Positions 21,287 to 24,563 of a stretch of DNA of 64,000 bases are shown here, in pieces (the first letter of the stretch is position 1; each line of letters opens with the position of its first letter). The stretch spans positions 3,650,608-3,714,607 of the forward strand of contig OX638345.1 in the NCBI GenBank assembly GCA_951813535.1, given 5' to 3'. Origin of the DNA: an uncultured Dehalococcoidia bacterium (GTDB lineage: Bacteria > Chloroflexota > Dehalococcoidia > Lucifugimonadales > UBA3495). Under the pieces are notes generated by a model, which saw only the letters and a list, made by a program, of their open reading frames with translations, made no database searches and had not been told where the DNA came from. The translations under genes were made by a program, and so were the position numbers.

Positions 21287-22969
21287 ATGGCAATCATCGC
21301 CGCTTTCAGCATGATGGGAGTTTTCTTCCTGATCGGCCTCTACGTCGCCGGCGCCCTCGGTGTGCTGTCCCTGGTGATGATGCAGGCGTTCTCTGATGCC
21401 CCGCTGTGGAACATCCTCGGCAACAAGGCATGGGAGAGCAACACCAACTTCATCCTGGTTGCGGTTCCCCTCTTCCTGCTCATGGGCGAGCTCATGCTCC
21501 GCTCCGGCATGGGCGAGCGCATGTATGGCGCCCTTTCCCGGTGGCTGGTGTTCCTGCCCGGCGGCCTGCTCCACACCAATATCGCCTCCTGCGCAGTCTT
21601 TGCGGCCTGCTCCGGCTCCAGCGTCGCCACCTCCGCCACCATCAGCCGCGTCTCCCTGCCGTCCTTCCGCCAACGCGGGTATAGCGAGCGCCTCGTCATT
21701 GGATCCCTGGCCGCCGGCGGTACCCTGGGCATCCTCATCCCGCCCAGTATCGGTCTGATCATCTTCGGCGTGCTGGTCGAGGAATCCATCGGCCGCCTCT
21801 ACATGGGAGGTTTCCTGCCCGGCTTCCTGCTCGCGTTCACCATGATGCTCATGATGATCGTAACGTCGGTCATCCTGCCTCGCACCGCGCCGATGGACGA
21901 GGAGGTACGCCGCCTTTATCGCGCCTGGTTCCACGGCATAGCGGTTCGACGTTACTCCGAAGAGCAGATGAGCGTAATGCGCCAGGAGCAGGCTACCGAG
22001 GCTGGCCTCACCGATCCTGAAGAACGCGCCGCCTACCGACGCGGCCGCTCCACCCTTTCGTATCCCGAGGCTATCGCCGAATGGCTGCGGATGATCAAGG
22101 AAGCGACCGTGGGCCTGCTGGCCATCATCCCGGTTTTGATCATCATCATCGTGGTGCTGGGGTCCATCTACACCGGCTGGGCTACGCCCACCGAGGCCGC
22201 CGCGCTGGGCGTGTTCGGCGCGCTGGTTGTGGCCATCGCCAACGAGTTGTTCAAGCGTTCCCAAGGCGTCTATACGGACTGGAACCAATCCATGCGCGGC
22301 ATCAAGGTTATGCTCCTGGATGCCATCATCTCCACCGTACGCACCTCGTCGATGATCATGCTCATCGTCATGGCGGCGTTCACCCTGAGCTTCGCATTCG
22401 CCCGCCTCGGCATCTCCCAGGACATCTCCGAGTGGATCACCGGCCAGAACCTCAACGCTCTCCAGTTCGTGATCATCCTGGTGTTCTTCTACCTGCTGTT
22501 GGGCACCTTCATGGAAAGCTTCGCCATGCTGGTGACCACCATCCCCATCCTCGCACCCTCCCTGGAAGCCGTGGGCGTTGACCTGGTGTGGTTCGGCATC
22601 ATCATGGTGATCCTCGTCGAGGCCGCACTCATCAGCCCGCCCGAGGGCATCAACCTCTACATCCTCCACGGCGTGAGACAGGACGTCGACGCGCAGATGG
22701 CGGAACAGACCGCGGCGGCACAGGAGGCGTTACGAGAAAGTACGATCACCGACGTGTATATCGGGGTCTTACCATTCATGGGCTGCATGGCTTTGGTGAT
22801 AGCACTTTTGTTCGCGTTCCCCGACATCGCCCTGTGGGCCCCGTGCATCATCTACGACGATCCCAGCAGGGATTTCCTGCAATCGGTCAACATCGAACGC
22901 GATGCCGCCGGCTTCTGGGAGCAAATCCGATACTGCTCGTCGGAGTTCCGACCCCGGGCGTACCAGTAG
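21287..22969 (+). CDS. TRAP transporter large permease subunit (DctM type)
   Basis: 560 residues; typical DctM is about 430. Hydrophobic throughout, with the family signatures GSSVATSATIS (near 105), GTLGILIPPSIGLIIFGVL (near 145) and the C-terminal GTFMESFAMLVTTIPILAP (near 405). Two additions explain the length: a charged cytoplasmic segment of about 70 residues (MDEEVRRLYRAWFHGIAVRR ... near 197-265) and a C-terminal extension of about 60 residues after the last helix. It is the ion-coupled transport channel. The upstream AGGA is rather far from ATG at 21287. Works with the DctQ-type protein and the double binding proteins. Confidence 0.9.
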   Translation: MAIIAAFSMMGVFFLIGLYVAGALGVLSLVMMQAFSDAPLWNILGNKAWESNTNFILVAVPLFLLMGELMLRSGMGERMYGALSRWLVFLPGGLLHTNIASCAVFAACSGSSVATSATISRVSLPSFRQRGYSERLVIGSLAAGGTLGILIPPSIGLIIFGVLVEESIGRLYMGGFLPGFLLAFTMMLMMIVTSVILPRTAPMDEEVRRLYRAWFHGIAVRRYSEEQMSVMRQEQATEAGLTDPEERAAYRRGRSTLSYPEAIAEWLRMIKEATVGLLAIIPVLIIIIVVLGSIYTGWATPTEAAALGVFGALVVAIANELFKRSQGVYTDWNQSMRGIKVMLLDAIISTVRTSSMIMLIVMAAFTLSFAFARLGISQDISEWITGQNLNALQFVIILVFFYLLLGTFMESFAMLVTTIPILAPSLEAVGVDLVWFGIIMVILVEAALISPPEGINLYILHGVRQDVDAQMAEQTAAAQEALRESTITDVYIGVLPFMGCMALVIALLFAFPDIALWAPCIIYDDPSRDFLQSVNIERDAAGFWEQIRYCSSEFRPRAYQ

Positions 22970-23106
22970 AACGAGCGTCGGCCCTCCTGCCGTATAATGC
23001 TTGGGAGCGCTTCTGCCGCCGTTGGGAGGCAGGGGCGCTGCTTCATCACGGGGAGTTCGTGTATTCCGGTTTCCCGCTGGAACAGGTTGGTTAACGAGGA
23101 ACGGCT

Positions 23107-23559
23107 ATGAAATACCGGGTTCTGCTGCACAAATCGGAAGAAGGCTACTTCGCGGTTTCCCCCAACTTCCCAACCTGCAACTCACAGGGTTCTACGGCTG
23201 AGGACGCATTGGAAAACGTCCGCTACGCGCTGCAGGATCATCTCACCGTGCGCGAGGACTTGCGCTGGGGAGACGTCCTCGGGAGCGACAACATCAAAGC
23301 GGTGGACATCGAGGTGGACCCGGTACGGGAAACGATGATGCGCTACCACATCCGGATGATCAAGGATAGCGAGGGCTACTCCGTTTCCTGCCCCATGTTG
23401 CCCGGCTGCTTCTCCCAGGGTGAGACTTTTGAGGAGGCACTGGCAAACATCCAAATCGCAATCCGGTAATGGCTCATTTCCATCCAGGAAATACTGTTGC
23501 TGGGAGAACCGGATGTCGAGATTATCGAGGTTGGCGAAGGGGAGGAGGCGGATCTCTAA
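23107..23559 (+). pseudogene. Duplicated HicB-like antitoxin with an in-frame stop
   Basis: The ATG at 23107 follows AGGA. Residues 1-48 (MKYRVLLHKSEEGYFAVSP ... QGSTAEDALENVRYAL) and 78-121 (MRYHIRMIKDSEGYSVSCP ... QGETFEEALANIQIAIR) are two HicB-type partial RNase-H folds. A TAA at 23467-23469 stops the second copy where family members continue with Glu (IREW.). Past the stop the same frame goes on for 29 codons with the expected tail (ISIQEILLLGEPDVEIIEV) to TAA at 23557, so a GAA-to-TAA change is likely. A truncated 120-residue protein may still be made. HicA follows directly in the same frame. Confidence 0.65.
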
Positions 23560-23775
23560 ATCACGCCCAGAGTTCCCGGTGTCAGTTGCAGTCGGGCAGT
23601 TAGAGCGTTGGAAAAGGCCGGTTTCAGGGTGGATCGGGAGACGAAGCACACTATAATGAAGAACAATGGGCTCACAGTATCCGTCCCCCGGCATAATCCG
23701 ATAAAACCGTTAACCATGGACGGTATCATTGTGCAGGCCGGCCTCACTGTTGAAGAATTCCGCGAACTGCTGTGA
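23560..23775 (+). pseudogene. HicA-like toxin reading frame without a start codon
   Basis: Directly after the HicB-tail stop, 71 codons read as HicA/YcfA: TPRVPGVSCSRAVRALEKAG, FRVDRETKHTIMKNNGLTVS, then IVQAGLTVEEFRELL and TGA. The catalytic-type His is kept (TKH), though the usual GSH is altered. The first codons are ATC ACG CCC where ATG would be expected, and no ATG, GTG or TTG lies near the N-terminus; the first candidates are TTG at codon 17 and an ATG inside the fold. With the broken HicB next to it this looks like a dead HicBA module. Not detectable by a length-filtered ORF search. Confidence 0.6.
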
Positions 23776-23834: not shown

Positions 23835-24563
23835 ATGTACGCCCTGATTCTCGCCGGCGGAAAGGGCGAACGCCTTCGTCCCCTCACCGATACTGTGCCC
23901 AAGCCCATGATCCCCTTATGCGGCCGTCCCATCCTCTGGCATCAGGTCCGCTGGCTGCGCGAGGCCGGCGTGACTGACGTTGTCTTTCTGGTCGGCCACC
24001 TTGCCGACGCGGTGCGGGAATATTTCGCCGACGGCAGCGATTGCGGCATCCGTGCCCACTACAGCCACGAGGATGTTCCCCTCGGGCGCGGCGGCGCTCT
24101 GCGCCAGGGTCTGGCCTCCCTGCCCCATGACGATCGCCCAATAGTTGCCACCAACGGCGACGTCATCACCGACGCCCCGCTGGCCGAGCTTATCGCCGAC
24201 TACGATTCCCGGCGTTTGCAGAACCCCGCCCACCTCGCCACGATCCTCACCGTGCCGATGGCCAGCCCCTATGGAATAGTGGACACCGGCGCGGACGGGC
24301 TGGTCACCCAGTTCCGCGAGAAGGCGGTACTGCCATACGCGATCAACGGCGGCGTCTACGTTCTCCATCCCGCCATCGGCGACCTGCTGCCTGAGTTGGG
24401 CGACCACGAGACCGGCACCTTTCCTGCCCTGGCAAGGGAGGGCCGCATGTCGGCCGTGTCCACCGATGCTTTCTGGCGCAGCGTCGACTCGCCCAAGGAC
24501 CTGCGCGAAGCTGAGGAGCATCTGTCCGGCGCAGTTGCCGACCCGATCGAGGCCGCGCAGTGA
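23835..24563 (+). CDS. Sugar-1-phosphate nucleotidyltransferase
   Basis: 242 residues, the catalytic Rossmann-like domain only. The nucleotide-binding signature LILAGGKGERLRPLTDTVPKPM is at residues 4-25, with the sugar-phosphate Lys in KPM; later TNGDVIT (metal Asp) and FREKAVLPYAINGGVYVL. It makes an NDP-sugar from NTP and a sugar 1-phosphate, probably GDP-mannose or dTDP-glucose type; it lacks the C-terminal hexapeptide domain of GlmU/GlgC. A TAGCAT box ends nine bases before ATG and there is no Shine-Dalgarno, so the transcript may be leaderless. Its stop overlaps the GTG start of the MoxR gene, implying coupled translation. Confidence 0.85.
   Translation: MYALILAGGKGERLRPLTDTVPKPMIPLCGRPILWHQVRWLREAGVTDVVFLVGHLADAVREYFADGSDCGIRAHYSHEDVPLGRGGALRQGLASLPHDDRPIVATNGDVITDAPLAELIADYDSRRLQNPAHLATILTVPMASPYGIVDTGADGLVTQFREKAVLPYAINGGVYVLHPAIGDLLPELGDHETGTFPALAREGRMSAVSTDAFWRSVDSPKDLREAEEHLSGAVADPIEAAQ

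Follow-up and report, generated by a model that had tools for sequence, protein, structure and literature searches.

A toxin–antitoxin (TA) module is regarded as difficult to lose, since its toxin has to disappear before the antitoxin can. The hicBA module considered here is broken by point changes in both of its genes. It lies within a stretch of 64,000 nucleotides, here called the window (G000:C1:3650608–3714607; genome 4.38 Mb, single contig). Very likely this is a chromosomal hicBA module that decayed recently, the toxin probably being lost first, and whose HicB is unusual in having two domains in ~150 aa. The evidence consists of lesions in both genes, orthologs that are still whole at the corresponding site of relatives, a relative in which both genes were broken independently, and a coding constraint that is still visible.

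Table 1. Features of the hicBA module and of the genes on either side (positions in the window).
Feature	Coordinates	Strand	Evidence and remarks
TRAP transporter large subunit gene (DctM), upstream flank of the slot	21287..22969	+	PF06808, E 2.1e-76; 5′ of the transferase gene in 11/14 congeners
hicB ORF, 120 aa, ATG start; HicB domain 1 whole, domain 2 cut	23107..23469	+	Pfam; aligned to intact 150- and 157-aa orthologs
HicB domain 1, residues 1–71, complete	23107..23319	+	AlphaFold2 model of G004 ortholog; PF15919, E 1.4e-4, below cut-off
HicB domain 2, residues 76–120, truncated within a helix	23332..23466	+	PF15919, E 1.2e-8; AlphaFold2 helix 108–131, last strand 136–141
Premature TAA; Glu (GAG) in G004, G012 and G013	23467..23469	+	Alignment
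hicB tail, 29 codons, readable, probably untranslated	23470..23556	+	omega 0.12 versus G004
Former hicB stop TAA, opposite the G004 TAA	23557..23559	+	Alignment
ATC, a mere spacer before the HicA start position	23560..23562	+	Alignment
ACG at the HicA start-codon position; ATG in G004, G012 and G013	23563..23565	+	Alignment
hicA remnant, full-length frame without a standard start; TGA stop at 23773–23775	23563..23775	+	PF07927, E 8.7e-10
Codon of the conserved HicA His, kept	23647–23649	+	Alignment with the invariant His
Nucleotidyltransferase gene, downstream flank of the slot	23835..24563	+	PF00483, E 1.6e-31; present in 13/14 congeners

A preliminary description of this DNA had read two HicB domains in one chain, the second cut by TAA at a Glu codon with a readable tail beyond it, and a HicA following in the hicB frame. 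All of this is borne out: PF15919 matches the 120-aa HicB in two stretches (E 2e-14, 54.2 bits), three relatives have Glu at the stop, the frame is open as far as the original terminator, and HicA is read in the same frame as hicB (Table 1). Taken singly, domain 2 scores 35.6 bits against PF15919, above the cut-off of 27, and domain 1 scores 22.4 bits, below it. The Pfam families listed for this HicB are PF15919 and PF21748, with DUF1902 absent, and an NCBIfam search of the module found no relevant family. The HicB sequence profile matches the HicB chain 6g1c (E 1.3e-11).

An AlphaFold2 model of the intact G004 HicB (14-row alignment; pLDDT 78, pTM 0.58) predicts two consecutive units, each of three strands, a helix and a further strand; in domain 1 these are strands 2–10, 13–18 and 21–28, helix 31–51 and strand 62–71. 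HicB antitoxins have a partial RNase H-like fold; HicB entries are the top PDB matches of this model in Foldseek, at E 0.01 or worse (0/366 at E ≤ 0.001). Domain 2 of the window HicB is incomplete, the protein ending after residue 120 compared with the 150 aa of the G004 ortholog. By this model the stop falls inside the domain 2 helix and takes away helix residues 121–131 together with the last strand, and domain 2 is accordingly predicted to be non-functional.

The HicA frame scores 39 bits against PF07927 (cut-off 27) and by family would encode a ribonuclease-type toxin; the family fold is alpha-beta-beta-beta-alpha. Its His is invariant across the four aligned HicA proteins, the window copy included, and this residue is described as important for activity in the excerpted text of PMC11594946. 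The preliminary description had placed ATC ACG where ATG belongs. The lack of a standard start stands, with no ATG, GTG or TTG near the N-terminus of the window HicA frame, although the ATG of the relatives lies opposite the ACG and the ATC belongs to the spacer. Since HicA has no standard start, the toxin is probably not made, as had been proposed. Among 35 HicA ORFs scored (from 55 loci), three have no start codon near the match: the window copy and two others, whose matches start part-way into the domain, at profile positions 11 and 26. Some features count against a dead toxin: GGAGGAGG is found upstream of the ACG, 14 bases away, and the HicA frame has no further lesion and an omega well below 1, like a gene still in use. 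In the intergenic region between the DctM stop and hicB, a TATAAT at 22993–22998 is kept in all four genomes that carry the module and may be part of a promoter or a terminator; it is followed by a G+C-rich inverted repeat, seen by eye in the alignment of the four carriers.

The slot, bounded by DctM on one side and the transferase gene on the other, was compared across 14 congeneric genomes, G000 included. A hicBBA module occupies it in four (G000, G004, G012 and G013), with 845–865 bases from the DctM stop to the transferase start. In seven others (G001, G002, G003, G006, G008, G009 and G011) DctM is directly next to the transferase gene without a module, and the gap is 24–206 bases. The remaining three were left unjudged: G007 has neither DctM nor module in the 1.5 kb examined, G010 meets a contig edge, and G005 has no transferase match. 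This comparison with related genomes, which the preliminary description had called for, finds both module genes intact in G004 and G012, with HicB proteins of 150 and 157 aa. The nearest relative with a module is G004 (contig 58); its HicB is 91% identical and free of stops, and the window module is therefore not a chance resemblance. The G013 copy has a stop after residue 54 of hicB and another in hicA two codons past the conserved His. Neither stop is common to G000, and because the lesions differ, both genes were lost independently in two of the four carriers. A programmed stop in hicB was rejected, the stops of G000 and G013 lying at different positions and in different contexts. In an rpoB tree of 13 genomes the four carriers and G001 fall on one side of a branch (support 0.997), and G001, with which G000 pairs (support 0.877), has therefore lost the module or never received it.

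The module is present as two diverged alleles. In 100-base windows the modules of G000 and G004 are 68–89% identical and those of G012 and G013 mostly 91–99%, versus about 45–75% between the two groups; the coding flanks are about 78–96% identical in all pairs, and the intergenic stretch before hicB is lower than the coding flanks, down to 55% for G000. As for synonymous divergence, in G012–G013 dS is 0.16 in hicB versus 0.56 in the transferase gene and 0.33 in the DctM part, and between groups it is 1.1–1.8 in hicB versus about 0.5–0.6 in the transferase gene. Replacement of the module at a fixed site appears likely from these comparisons, a reading on which it bears that the G004, G012 and G013 assemblies are multi-contig (70, 40 and 160 contigs) with estimated contamination of 5–8%. 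By eye, the 3′ end of the window hicA looks closer to the G012/G013-type allele (L097 and L096 compared) than to G004, suggestive of recombination inside hicA.

A broader, rather improbable reading would join these observations and make the slot a TA cassette site, at which two long-diverged hicBBA alleles swap by recombination through the flanks, point changes in both genes have silenced each allele in one of the two carriers known for it, and weak starts are a graded down-tuning. Dead copies would then be swappable for live ones, since each allele is off in one carrier of two. If so, dead modules would be exchanged rather than simply lost, and the ACG here and an ATT at another hicA of this genome (described below) would be a graded way to lower the toxin.

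The age of the lesions was approached through constraint. For G000–G004, omega (NG86) is 0.12 in hicB (0.14 in domain 1, 0.09 in domain 2) and has the same value of 0.12 in the tail after the stop; in the flanks it is 0.14 for the transferase gene and 0.03 for the C-terminal part of DctM. The lesions look young because constraint is equal before and after the stop. The tail has 5.5 nonsynonymous changes, with 4.4 expected if it were fully constrained and 20.5 if half of the path were neutral (assumed dS 0.55), and at most 0.25 of the G000–G004 path can have been neutral in the tail and at most 0.28 in HicA, both rough Poisson bounds at the same assumed dS. HicA evolves faster than HicB in this pair (Fisher p 0.023, rounded counts), and its omega is 0.38, the highest among six pairs, versus 0.32 for the intact pair G004–G012; the split of changes does not differ between these two pairs (p 1.0). 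These values fit young lesions. At one chromosomal slot, close relatives present every stage of a series: no module at all, either of two alleles in working form, and both genes lost, recently and on two separate occasions.

Under the preferred explanation of recent decay, the ancestor would have had a two-domain HicB of ~150 aa, a short spacer and then a 70-aa HicA. With ACG at the HicA start position little or no toxin would be made, and the antitoxin gene would also have been stopped, half way through the domain 2 helix. The toxin would have been lost before the hicB stop arose or together with it, because loss of the antitoxin beside a live toxin should be harmful. Any coupling of hicA translation to hicB would be gone as well, since with the early stop the ribosome would leave hicB 93 bases short of the HicA start position.

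Other hicA and hicB loci of the genus provide a background for this loss. HicA matches number 5 in G000, 21 in G004, 15 in G012 and 7 in G013. Two of the five in G000 are halves of one gene (C1:3717338–3718969; L004 and L151) split by an insertion of about 1450 bases that contains a PF13546 DDE transposase ORF and has a 14-base direct repeat. This split hicA is ~2.7 kb past the end of the window, and clean inverted ends were not established for its insertion. The hicB after it is readable and has one domain, as in G001 and G003, with two domains in five congeners read; the G001 ortholog of the split hicA contains a TAG, and by eye the G012 ortholog seems to have a shifted frame. A third match, at C1:2751235–2751498 (L185), has ATT at the HicA start position and an in-frame TTG three codons downstream; among those listed, seven relatives start with ATG (5), GTG (1) and TTG (1). 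The fourth, at C1:801787, looks like an ordinary hicA with a probable TTG start, three codons shorter at its end than the G013 copy. An initial reading of a frameshift at the start of this gene was rejected, the same arrangement and an upstream in-frame TTG being present in G013. The fifth is the window copy. At G000:C1:4065183–4065491 (L002, reverse strand) a tandem hicB-hicB is found directly 5′ of a gene that by eye resembles a D-isomer hydroxyacid dehydrogenase, without the hicA that in G013 (L031) comes after the hicB pair and before that gene. Loss of hicA with hicB staying thus seems to recur in G000 by several routes. G003 (single contig, 3.3 Mb) is the sole congener of the 14 without a HicA match at E ≤ 0.001, and has 5 HicB_lk matches.

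Several other explanations bear on the same data. HicA could still be made weakly from the ACG, or from TTG 23608, as an attenuated toxin restrained by the truncated HicB through its domain 1. ACG is a near-cognate codon, weak as a start, and one study is reported to have dealt with initiation from all 64 codons in E. coli. The frame free of further lesions at omega 0.38, the conserved His, the whole domain 1 of the model and the ATT of the C1:2751235 hicA with its TTG three codons on all agree with such use, and the explanation stays alive because the constraint data also fit a gene still in use. It is nonetheless quite unlikely: no standard start lies near the HicA N-terminus, a start at TTG 23608 would cost the frame 15 codons from the ACG onward and with them, by the family fold, much of the first helix, the early hicB stop abolishes any translational coupling, and the same omega is expected if the lesions are simply young. 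Errors of sequencing or assembly in a gene pair that is really intact could account for two lesions within 100 bases of each other; this is very unlikely, given that the frame keeps its length at both sites, the assembly consists of one contig, G013 has independently lost both genes of the same module, and in G000 an insertion flanked by the 14-base direct repeat described above interrupts another hicA and one more is absent relative to G013.

The truncated 120-aa HicB might instead be kept as an orphan antitoxin against HicA toxins encoded elsewhere, in an anti-addiction role. At two other G000 loci hicB is readable beside a broken or absent hicA, as it partly is here, and the excerpted text of PMC10790755 describes an abundance of orphan antitoxins in E. 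coli and considers anti-addiction as a role. Against this, hicB constraint is equal on both sides of the stop and so dates mostly from the time before truncation, and the G013 hicB is cut after residue 54; such a role is unlikely. The preliminary description had also suggested that the doubling of the antitoxin may have been an intermediate step after which the toxin could be dispensed with. Doubling and loss do coincide in this locus, and the genus has two more loci with a doubled or tandem hicB at which some genomes have lost hicA or carry it broken. However, doubling is found in all four carriers and in both diverged alleles, G004 and G012 having a whole hicA next to it, and thus predates the lesions. 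Furthermore, G000 and G001 have a hicB that now has a single domain beside a broken hicA, so that doubling was not needed for toxin loss there, unless the older state of that locus was different. The proposed intermediate is therefore highly unlikely, and recent decay of an already doubled module is preferred.

The doubled HicB is itself unusual. With a profile of our own, two HicB domains were found in 7 of 115 HicB-domain ORFs (107 loci), and all seven represent this locus in three genomes, the broken G013 copy being outside the count. Of 250 genomes from the order, 4 gave a match to the doubled-HicB profile over nearly its whole length and 13 more a partial one. In a sample of the phylum this profile matched at E ≤ 1e-14 in 3 of 400, at full length in G000 only; in another genome of the sample, G330, the match covers positions 12–122 and has three stops. 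Plasmid and phage records contained no relative of the intact doubled HicB. A different doubled HicB, about 250 aa long and encoded after its hicA, was read in G006, G007, G010, G012 and G013, and paired matches in one frame suggest that it is also present in G002, G004 and G005; G000, G001 and G003 have one HicB domain at that locus. Because of this longer protein, it was rejected that HicB doubling occurs solely at the slot studied here.

The locus is a case of ordinary TA decay with unusually clear comparative evidence. Among the matches listed from open-licence PMC text (titles and abstract openings), none deals with this locus or with the decay of a module whose HicB has two domains. A partial parallel is found in E. 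coli, in which, in the excerpted text of PMC10790755, some lineages have fewer toxins together with the abundant orphan antitoxins; there, however, the data are gene presence across strains and orphan toxins are abundant too, whereas here single lesions lie in both genes. Within the genus, the hicA-hicBB locus (e.g. L172, G013 C120) likewise has two PF15919 stretches per chain and a hicA that is broken in G000 and G001, but it is a separate locus with hicA before hicB and a HicB of about 250 aa.

The hicBA classification of Gerdes (2024, PMC10865869), as far as its excerpted text goes, provides two further comparisons. In class 2, hicB has 63–103 codons, HicA has 60–85 aa, and HicB has no recognised DNA-binding domain. 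The module shares with it the hicB-then-hicA order, the lack of a recognised DNA-binding domain and the size of HicA, but its intact HicB exceeds the class 2 range, with 150–157 aa and two domains, and the window copy is broken in both genes. Class 7 has a HicB of 216–233 aa with two domains matched to DUF1902, and HicA is proposed to bind the C-terminal one. The hicBA order and the two HicB-like domains in one chain are alike, but the intact orthologs are shorter, at 150–157 aa, and match PF15919/UPF0150 with no DUF1902-type domains. Because doubled HicB recurs, including in class 7 as excerpted, the doubled state is read as an older arrangement and not as a by-product of decay. A two-domain HicB of ~150 aa in hicBA order fits none of the size classes 2, 7 and 8, all without a DNA-binding domain, in the same excerpted text, and represents a modest new HicB arrangement.
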